A DNA stretch of 32,721 nt from Candidatus Omnitrophota bacterium (GTDB lineage: Bacteria > Omnitrophota > Gorgyraeia > B26-G9), in contig JAHJAO010000118.1 of NCBI GenBank assembly GCA_018813905.1, forward strand, positions 1-32,721, read 5' to 3'. Numbering within the stretch: the stretch's first letter is position 1; the number at the start of each line of letters is the position of its first letter. Below are positions 19,372-21,488 of the stretch, in pieces. A model generated the notes under the pieces. That model searched no databases, was not told the DNA's origin, and saw nothing but the letters and a program-made list of their open reading frames with translations. Made by a program: the position numbers and the translations under genes.

Positions 19372-20082
19372 TTATGCCTGGTCTTGCCTTTTAAAAATTT
19401 CCGGTTTGATTTCCAGCAATTTTATGAAGATTTCTACAACTTTGGGATCAAACTGAGTCCCGCTATGTTTTTTTAACTCACAGATAGCCTCTTCTTTGGT
19501 TAACTTCTCCCGGTAGGGACGCTTGCTAATCATAGCATCAAAGCTATCCGCCACCGCCATGATCCTTGCGCCTAAACTTATCTTTTCTTGAGCCAACCCG
19601 TCAGGGTATCCGGCGCCGTCATATCGTTCGTGATGCTCACGTACTATCTGTAATACCTTATCCAAAAAACGGAATGGTTTAAGGATAACCGCGCCCGCTA
19701 AAGAATGCAATCGCATTTCCTTCCATTCTTTTTCATTAAGCTTATCAGGTTTTGTCAGTATATAGTCGTGCACTCCGATTTTGCCCAAATCATGTACAAG
19801 ACACGCATCTTTAATCTTATAAATTTCCTCCTTTGACAATCCCAGCTCCTCGGCAATAGCGCAAGCGTACATTCTTACGTTATCAGAATGGTGCTTGGTC
19901 AAATGATCTTTGAAATCTATAGCCGAGACCAGAGCGCTGATGGTGCGCATAATATTCCTGCGTTCTATCCGACCCCATAAACGCCTGTTTTTTATCTTTT
20001 CTTCCTTTTTGTAAATATAATACCCGATAAATATGCCGATAAAAAATCCGATGATTGGGAAGATTAATGTGGTTAACTTCAT
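19372..20082 (-). CDS. Membrane-anchored HD-GYP domain protein
   Basis: This 236-residue protein has one N-terminal membrane helix (about residues 4-24) followed by a short basic linker and an HD-GYP phosphohydrolase domain. Metal ligands H97-D98 (LVHDLGKIG), H126, H150-H151 and D155, and the GYP triplet at 158-160 (DGAGYPDGL), are all present, so an active cyclic-di-GMP or related phosphodiesterase is expected. There is no receiver or PAS domain to indicate its signal. Its ATG overlaps the rsfS stop by 4 bp. Other genes of the same array include the type IV pilus genes, which c-di-GMP often controls, but a direct link is inference. Confidence 0.9.
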   Translation of the reverse strand: MKLTTLIFPIIGFFIGIFIGYYIYKKEEKIKNRRLWGRIERRNIMRTISALVSAIDFKDHLTKHHSDNVRMYACAIAEELGLSKEEIYKIKDACLVHDLGKIGVHDYILTKPDKLNEKEWKEMRLHSLAGAVILKPFRFLDKVLQIVREHHERYDGAGYPDGLAQEKISLGARIMAVADSFDAMISKRPYREKLTKEEAICELKKHSGTQFDPKVVEIFIKLLEIKPEIFKRQDQA

Positions 20083-20459
20083 CTGCGTTTTTTATTGCTT
20101 TTCGCTATTTTAACTGCCCCCGGCATGCGCATACGGGCCCCATCGGCCCACAAGCGCTCTAAATCATAAAAACTTCTTGTTTCTGAATCAAAAATGTGCA
20201 CGATAACATTCGAATAATCCAATATCACCCATCGGCAATCACCGACTCCTTCTATGTGGTGCAGATAGACGCTAGCCTTGTGCAAACCCTCTTTTATCCC
20301 CTCGGCAAGCGCCCGGATATGCGTTGGCGAAGAGCCGGTAAATATGATAAAAAAATCGCAAAAAGTAGAGACCTTACGCAGGTCTAAAATTACCGGATCC
20401 GCCGCTTTCTTTTCATTAGCCAGTTTCAAAATTGTTTCTACTTTAGTTTTACTCTTAAT
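20079..20459 (-). CDS. rsfS: Ribosomal silencing factor RsfS, probable AUU start
   Basis: This RsfS (RsfA/DUF143) binds ribosomal protein uL14 and blocks subunit joining in starved cells. KKAADPVILDLRKVSTFCDFFIIFTG, GDCRWVILDYSNVIVHIF and YDLERLW are signature segments. The first conventional start is TTG at 20427-20429, but it has no ribosome-binding site and would remove the first helix. Ten codons upstream, ATT at 20457-20459 sits exactly 7 bases after a strong GGAGG (20467-20471). It adds IKSKTKVETI, which gives the normal ~17 residues before the KAED-like motif. No ATG, GTG or CTG lies in between. I therefore annotate 126 residues starting at AUU. The minimum certain extent is 20079-20429. 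Confidence 0.85.
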   Translation of the reverse strand: MKSKTKVETILKLANEKKAADPVILDLRKVSTFCDFFIIFTGSSPTHIRALAEGIKEGLHKASVYLHHIEGVGDCRWVILDYSNVIVHIFDSETRSFYDLERLWADGARMRMPGAVKIAKSNKKRR

Positions 20460-20483
20460 AGCTACCCCTCCTCATCTTATTAT

Positions 20484-21488
20484 TCAGCTGATATCCCCTT
20501 CAATTTCACCCACGATTTCTTCTAAAAGATCCTCGAGTGTTACCAGGCCCACCGTATTTTTATCTTCACCGGTAATAATTGCGATATAAACCCTTAATTT
20601 TTGAAATTCCCGCAACAATTCGCTTACCCGCTTTTTGCTGTCTATAAAATAGGCCGGCCGCAATAAATCTTCGATTATAAAAGGCTGTTTTTCGCGCCAA
20701 ACAGCTAAAAGATGCCGTGCATAAATTAATCCGCAAATATTATTAAGATTATCCCGGTATACGGGAATCCTTGAATGTCCGCCTTCAACAATCAAATCTA
20801 TTAACTTTTCGGGCGTGGTGTTTATATCTACGGCCACCATCTTCTCCACGGGGATCATAACGGCATACACCTGCGTATCTCCAAACTCAAAAATCTTTTG
20901 CAACATTTTTCGCTCGGTATCTGTCAAAACCCCTTCTTCCTTGCCCAATTCAATCATCAGTCTTATCTCTTCTTCCGTTATTAACGGGGATCGCTTAGTC
21001 TGTTCCATGCCAAAAAATTTTAAAATGACCTCGCTTATCCCCAAAAAAATCTTAACCGGTAAGGCCAATAGTTTTATTATCAATTCCATCGGCCACGCAA
21101 TATTAAGCGCAATACGCTCGGCGTGTTTAACCGCAAAAATTTTTGGGGTTATTTCCCCCAAGATTAATACAAGCAAAGTAATGAGAACAGTAGCACTAAC
21201 GATGGCAATAAAATTGTTGCCCAAAAAATAAATAAATATTGCCGTGCCGATGGATGAGATAGCGATATTCACAAAATTATTGGAGATAAGGATGGTCGTG
21301 ATAAGCCCATCCATTCTGTTGATGATGCGTTGCACAATATGCGCATTCTTTTTTTTCTGATTCAAAAGATAACGCAATCTCAATTTATTCAAGCTTACAA
21401 ATGCGACCTCCGCCATGGCAAAAAAGGCGGAGAACAAAAGAAGCACAAATAAAGCAATTATCATTACCAAAAGAAGTTCTGGTTTCAT
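20484..21488 (-). CDS. CNNM/DUF21-CBS transporter-like membrane protein without CorC domain
   Basis: This 334-residue protein has the CNNM (DUF21) transmembrane domain with four hydrophobic segments between residues 4 and 150. It includes the conserved acidic helix end AFFAMAEVAFVS and the GEITPK loop (111-116). A CBS pair follows (about 205-330) with the usual VMIPVEKMVAV and GHSRIPVYRDNLNNICGLIYARHLL. It ends at EEIVGEIEGDIS, just after the second CBS. Most HlyC/CorC proteins continue for ~90 residues into a CorC_HlyC domain, which is missing. Relatives are linked to Mg2+/Co2+ export. It sits 5 bp after nadD, with an A-rich leader and no clear ribosome-binding site. Confidence 0.88.
   Translation of the reverse strand: MKPELLLVMIIALFVLLLFSAFFAMAEVAFVSLNKLRLRYLLNQKKKNAHIVQRIINRMDGLITTILISNNFVNIAISSIGTAIFIYFLGNNFIAIVSATVLITLLVLILGEITPKIFAVKHAERIALNIAWPMELIIKLLALPVKIFLGISEVILKFFGMEQTKRSPLITEEEIRLMIELGKEEGVLTDTERKMLQKIFEFGDTQVYAVMIPVEKMVAVDINTTPEKLIDLIVEGGHSRIPVYRDNLNNICGLIYARHLLAVWREKQPFIIEDLLRPAYFIDSKKRVSELLREFQKLRVYIAIITGEDKNTVGLVTLEDLLEEIVGEIEGDIS

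Follow-up and report, generated by a model that had tools for sequence, protein, structure and literature searches.

Putative AUU start codon of rsfS in an Omnitrophota genome and a class-wide pattern of AUA, AUU and AUC starts

The rsfS locus and its start codon

The window, that is, the whole stretch of 32,721 nucleotides that was analysed, carries rsfS on the minus strand between two genes of the same strand. The features that concern us here are listed in the order in which the minus strand is read.

20484 to 21488, minus strand: HlyC/CorC-type gene upstream of rsfS (GldE and CorC models matched below their cut-offs)
20472 to 20474, minus strand: in-frame TGA, five codons 5' of the rsfS ATT (from the sequence)
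20467 to 20472, minus strand: AGGAGG, Shine-Dalgarno (SD) sequence of rsfS (from the sequence and the SD score)
20457 to 20459, minus strand: ATT, proposed start codon of rsfS (from the SD score; the homologous codon is canonical in sister classes)
20427 to 20429, minus strand: TTG, codon 11, first conventional in-frame start of rsfS, without SD (from the SD score; inside helix 1 of the model)
20079 to 20459, minus strand: rsfS coding sequence from ATT to stop, 126 aa (open frame; match to TIGR00090)
19372 to 20082, minus strand: gene of an HD-domain protein downstream of rsfS, its ATG overlapping the rsfS stop by four bases

The leader of rsfS reads GGAGG (20471-20467), then the seven bases GGTAGCT, then ATT (20459-20457), confirming on the minus strand the spacing given by a first-pass annotation. 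The ATT is followed by AAG AGT AAA ACT AAA GTA GAA ACA ATT TTG. Fourteen sense codons separate the TGA (20474-20472) from the codon-11 TTG, and ATG, GTG or TTG occurs in none of them. On an SD score that counts perfect runs only, the ATT reaches -13.0 kcal/mol (AGGAGG, spacing 7), compared to a median of -8.6 for the SD-supported canonical starts of the same genome. The TTG scores -3.0 kcal/mol (AAG, spacing 7), and the annotation's remark that this codon, ten codons later, has no ribosome-binding site thus holds. We conclude from the sequence that the AUU at 20459-20457 is very probably where translation of rsfS begins. The folding of the start region is not unusual (z 0.84), and a hairpin there was considered and rejected.

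Standard open reading frame rules would choose the codon-11 TTG, the first conventional codon in frame, in which case the upstream SD and the upstream similarity would be incidental. Apart from its missing SD, several properties of the protein make this choice highly improbable. Translated from the ATT, the product matches TIGR00090 (rsfS) over residues 7-104 with 110.5 bits (cut-off 56.9), so that the start of the family model precedes the TTG by four residues. Residues 4-10 are conserved over 164 aligned sequences, the window included, with A at residue 7 in 118 and I at residue 10 in 108 of them. With the ATT as residue 1, residue numbers agree with 6 of the 13 solved RsfS sequences, whose first residues sit where the ATT puts them: the same-number stretches are 11-118 with 2o5a, 7-110 with 9q40, 14-109 with 2id1, 14-107 with S. 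aureus RsfS (6sj5, 6sj6) and 9-105 with the 105-residue chain 30qz_6. The numbering of the remaining seven is shifted; judging from the table, these have a longer N-terminus, a tag or a mitochondrial origin. Finally, an AlphaFold2 model (11 sequences, mean pLDDT 79.8) places helix 1 at residues 3-16 with a block pLDDT of 86-88. The TTG lies within this helix, and the model supports the earlier claim that a start there would remove it, or most of it, keeping residues 11-16.

The homologous codon in the class and its sister classes

We compared rsfS genes from 135 genomes of the window's class, one per genome, and 29 from sister classes of the same phylum, aligned via a profile made from the class set; 6 of 170 loci had been removed as duplicate start regions. 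The 135 were drawn from 342 class genomes with an rsfS match and cover 45 families; they comprise the genomes supplied together with loci and further rows chosen by hand from score-ordered listings, with low-scoring families such as f38, f50 and f52 lying outside the sample. Of 221 class genomes with a completeness of 90% or more and a contamination of 5% or less, 10 gave no rsfS match, perhaps owing to loss, divergence or an assembly gap. In families f9, f33 and f38 (e.g. G019, G053, G043, G108) the match is split in two, as though the middle of the protein held an insert or had diverged.

At the codon homologous to the window's ATT, the class genes have ATA in 46 cases, ATT in 12, ATC in 9 and ACG in 4, and otherwise TTG (7), GTG (6), ATG (3) or other codons (48). 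Some of these 48 seem by eye to start elsewhere, such as L012 at an ACG and L104 at an ATC, twelve codons upstream. ATH (ATA, ATT or ATC) occupies the homologous position in 66 of 134 genes, one gene being left out because its ATC precedes a stop (L007), compared to 1-11% at the ten nearest codons, five on each side. The sister classes have TTG in 18 of 29 genes, GTG in 6, ATG in 2, ATA in 1 and others in 2, that is, a canonical codon in 26 of 29. Beyond the class, therefore, this position is a normal start site; within the class it frequently holds an AUH codon. Outside the phylum, an ATG lies no more than six codons from the aligned start in 13 of 13 loci. The recurrence of ATH in independent genomes also bears on the quality of the window sequence itself: the genome is a draft of 135 contigs and ATT is one base from ATG, but an assembly error in place of a canonical codon is, given these counts, scarcely credible.

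The start regions were then classified gene by gene. In 56 of the 135 class genes (55 under a second rule), the stretch from the in-frame stop to the conserved domain holds no ATG, GTG or TTG. In 43 genes, hereafter the strict cases, a canonical codon is absent and an ATH or ACG stands behind an SD at 4-11 nt. Another 15 are probable cases, in which an ATH or ACG has an SD and the gene's own canonical codons have none; these include weak SDs and some codons off the aligned position. A canonical start with SD is found in 39 genes, a canonical codon without SD in 25, and neither a canonical codon nor an ATH or ACG with such an SD in 13. Strict cases span 20 of the 45 sampled families, and strict and probable cases together 27. 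On the domain tree, codon identity requires 9 changes compared to a mean of 35 in 100 shuffles (114 labelled rows), and the start calls require 24 compared to 40 in shuffles (122 rows), indicating that the non-canonical start is inherited but labile.

These sequence comparisons strongly support the proposed AUU start and extend it: initiation of rsfS on AUA, AUU or AUC, and in some cases ACG, appears to be a class-wide pattern of which the window is one case. Standard gene calling is likely to misplace the rsfS start in this class.

The nearest relatives give a more mixed picture. AUU is not common to the window's own family, in which eleven relatives mostly have canonical rsfS starts. Six of them (L002-L007) have a TTG with SD at codon 3, two codons downstream, L011 has a GTG and L013 an ATG at codon 4, and L010 and L008 have ATG; in L023 a stop is directly followed by ATT, with a GTG seven codons in. 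Five of the relatives with TTG also have, one or two codons 5' of it, an ATT (L002, L003, L005, L006) or an ATA (L004), suggesting that the start site may have shifted. The alignment with relatives that the first-pass annotation had called for is thus clearly positive across the class and divided among close kin.

Ribosomes finishing the upstream gene might also be the main translators of rsfS, in which case the start codon would hardly matter. In the window such coupling is suggested by the short same-strand gap of 24 nt between the stop of the HlyC/CorC-type gene and the ATT. Among the strict cases, on the other hand, 21 of 43 have their nearest upstream ORF on the same strand, with gaps of -16 to 223 nt, and the upstream genes vary (HlyC type, nadD, a zinc-ribbon gene). 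In the other 22 that ORF lies on the opposite strand, though many of these may be shadow ORFs, which makes this survey weak. As rsfS has a strong SD of its own, coupling is unnecessary, and we regard it as very unlikely. The zinc-ribbon gene, a CxxC type of about 65 codons, recurs near rsfS in the class (e.g. just upstream in L089, L052 and L088); it forms one cluster of 30 loci and is the nearest upstream ORF in 6 of the 43 strict cases.

To place these figures, the same rule was applied to nine control families taken from the same loci and named by eye: argS (46), nadD (47), rpmI (30), rplT (30), pheS (15), recJ (24), the zinc-ribbon gene (27), an M16 peptidase (20) and the HlyC/CorC type (25). 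None of the 264 control genes is without a canonical start, compared to 55 of 135 for rsfS (Fisher p 1.6e-30) and 20 of 30 for infC. We also scanned 466 kb of the window's own genome, made up of the window, the infC locus and stretches of at most 20 kb per contig from forty contigs; the first two were included on purpose and the other 430 kb were picked regardless of content. Longest ORFs were used, a coding-potential filter having proved too strict (109 genes kept, rsfS lost). From 414 ORFs closed upstream, 23 candidates emerged in which an SD-supported AUH or ACG precedes every canonical codon; infC ranks first (-19.6), rsfS second (-13.0) and the next candidate follows at -10.9. Together, the controls and this ranking indicate that the feature marks rsfS and infC, as far as tested.

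Two other ORFs of the same genome were noted in passing. One (L243, contig C30, plus strand, around 2730) has GGAGG 5 nt before an ATC, a product that starts like a signal peptide and its first canonical codon nine codons on, and is a possible third AUH start. The other (L246, contig C33, minus strand, around plus-strand coordinate 12915) resembles alanine racemase by eye and starts shortly after an in-frame stop with its usual N-terminus seemingly missing; a frameshift or decay is possible.

infC in the same genomes and a possible role of IF3

The infC genes of thirty class genomes mostly begin with ATT, ATC, ATA or ACG behind strong SDs, and 20 of the 30 have no canonical option at all. Four ACG, a codon with a mismatch at the second base, are counted among the infC genes of the class without a canonical start; an ACG start behind a strong SD is apparent by eye in L188, L189, L197 and L200.

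For 33 of the 43 strict rsfS genomes, those with an infC locus at hand, the two genes could be paired. In 25 of the 33, infC has no in-frame canonical codon, and in 5 it has one but a better SD at an AUH codon. In the remaining 3 (G025 ATG, G042 TTG, G090 TTG), a strong SD precedes a canonical infC start, no AUH codon offers itself as an alternative, and rsfS has AUA. A fourth such genome, G068, lies outside the 135; its rsfS has ATA behind AGGAGGTGA and its infC has TTG. These four genomes indicate that infC and rsfS, although often alike in this trait, are not strictly tied to each other.

With regard to infC itself, L210, L294 and L298 of family f32, as well as L304 of G025, have TTG or ATG behind a strong SD next to an rsfS with ATA, and self-control of infC may have been lost in these genomes. 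In the sister classes a canonical infC start is missing in about 8 of 28 genes (9 of 29 rows before leaving out L276, which is cut off). Family f58 has infC mostly with TTG close behind GGAGG, and its rsfS has TTG or GTG.

Previous work offers a frame for these observations. Initiation complexes that form on a codon outside the AUG, GUG and UUG set are destabilised by IF3, from which the self-repression of infC follows, and sigR is a further IF3 target in Streptomyces via its GTC start (PMC5472188). In S. aureus, where infC starts at AUA, AUA and AUU starts give about a tenth of AUG expression, although the ccpN start reaches up to 30% of AUG expression in rich medium (PMC13009471). In a reconstituted system, more IF3 lowers the yield from AUU read by a CAU anticodon (PMC10158994). 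Relatives of this RsfS are known to bind uL14 on the 50S subunit and to block subunit joining; IF3 likewise prevents joining, and both factors rise in E. coli without RimM (PMC13246957).

On this basis we propose the following sequence of events. The strong SD would guide the ribosome to the AUU of rsfS, the start codons AUA, AUU, AUC and sometimes ACG having taken the site of the UUG, GUG or AUG of the sister classes. Since IF3 disfavours AUH codons, rsfS would be translated weakly. When IF3 becomes scarce relative to 30S subunits, RsfS would rise as the infC product does, and since IF3 opposes joining on the 30S subunit and RsfS on the 50S subunit, a cell short of IF3 would gain anti-association capacity on the 50S subunit. 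The prevalence of the same start type in the infC genes of the class and the joint action of IF3 and RsfS in E. coli make such an IF3-sensitive feedback plausible. We place control of the rsfS start by IF3 slightly above an even chance. The explanation as a whole, an AUU-started rsfS as part of a class-wide design and raised when IF3 is short, appears to us moderately probable. Extended to a class-wide circuit, in which the mRNAs of IF3 and RsfS usually carry starts disfavoured by IF3 and both proteins rise as free IF3 falls, keeping subunits apart, the proposal is tentative and falls somewhat short of even.

The main rival of IF3 control accepts the AUU or AUA as a real start but regards it as a fixed, weak one, which keeps RsfS scarce because an excess would silence ribosomes, and which does not sense the supply of IF3. 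We give it a real but clearly smaller chance. It draws strength from the sister classes, where ATG makes up 2 of 26 canonical rsfS codons compared to 41 of 96 starts with SD support at these loci (p 0.0009); this preference for TTG and GTG suggests that weakness, and not IF3 sensing, was selected. It also agrees with the genomes in which rsfS is still AUA next to a canonical infC (G025, G042, G068 and G090). Moreover, E. coli pcnB, which starts at AUU, is reportedly translationally limited as well. A fixed weak start must, however, escape the rule, expected from the work on E. coli and Streptomyces, that any AUH start is IF3-sensitive. It also leaves unexplained why the class left UUG for codons beyond AUG, GUG and UUG, a move that weakness in the sister classes did not need.

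If control by IF3 is real, IF3 would govern a small regulon in this class, with one logic throughout, derived from a UUG-started rsfS.

Comparison with known systems

Few bacterial genes are known to have AUH starts, and the view of IF3 as a gene-specific regulator rests on a handful of cases; a deeply recurring AUH start on the gene of a factor that acts against subunit association from the 50S side would link joining of the subunits to how much IF3 is available. The closest parallel is infC, with AUU in E. coli, ATC in Streptomyces and AUA in S. aureus. Like infC, rsfS in this class has an AUH start behind a strong SD and a product that keeps subunits apart. Unlike infC, which regulates itself, rsfS would be controlled by another protein. 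With E. coli pcnB it shares the AUU start and the fact of not being a ribosomal-protein gene, although the function of pcnB is unrelated.

The first-pass annotation had held that AUU starts are known mainly for infC and pcnB. This is roughly right, but other non-canonical starts have been published. As rsfS may be here, sigR of Streptomyces is a second gene under IF3 via a non-canonical start, which is conserved in relatives; it differs from rsfS in having a GTC codon, encoding a sigma factor and having been tested experimentally (PMC5472188). The starts of ccpN (AUA) and cvfC1 (AUU) in S. aureus resemble those of rsfS in their codons; they are conserved, have an extended SD and were shown by ribosome profiling to be used, and their proteins are unrelated to RsfS (PMC13009471). 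The available portion of that source does not name rsfS among the S. aureus non-canonical cases (PMC13009471). Among the literature matches listed, in the extracts to hand, there is no report of a non-canonical rsfS start; one of them, PMC11975287, joins rsfS, infC and the term non-canonical, and start codons are not the concern of its accessible text.

RsfS/YbeB/Iojap proteins elsewhere belong to the same family and share the residue numbering, with an ATG near the aligned start in all 13 loci from outside the phylum. IF3-sensitive non-canonical starts are of a known kind, of which rsfS would be a new case, unusual in its breadth and in its functional tie to IF3.
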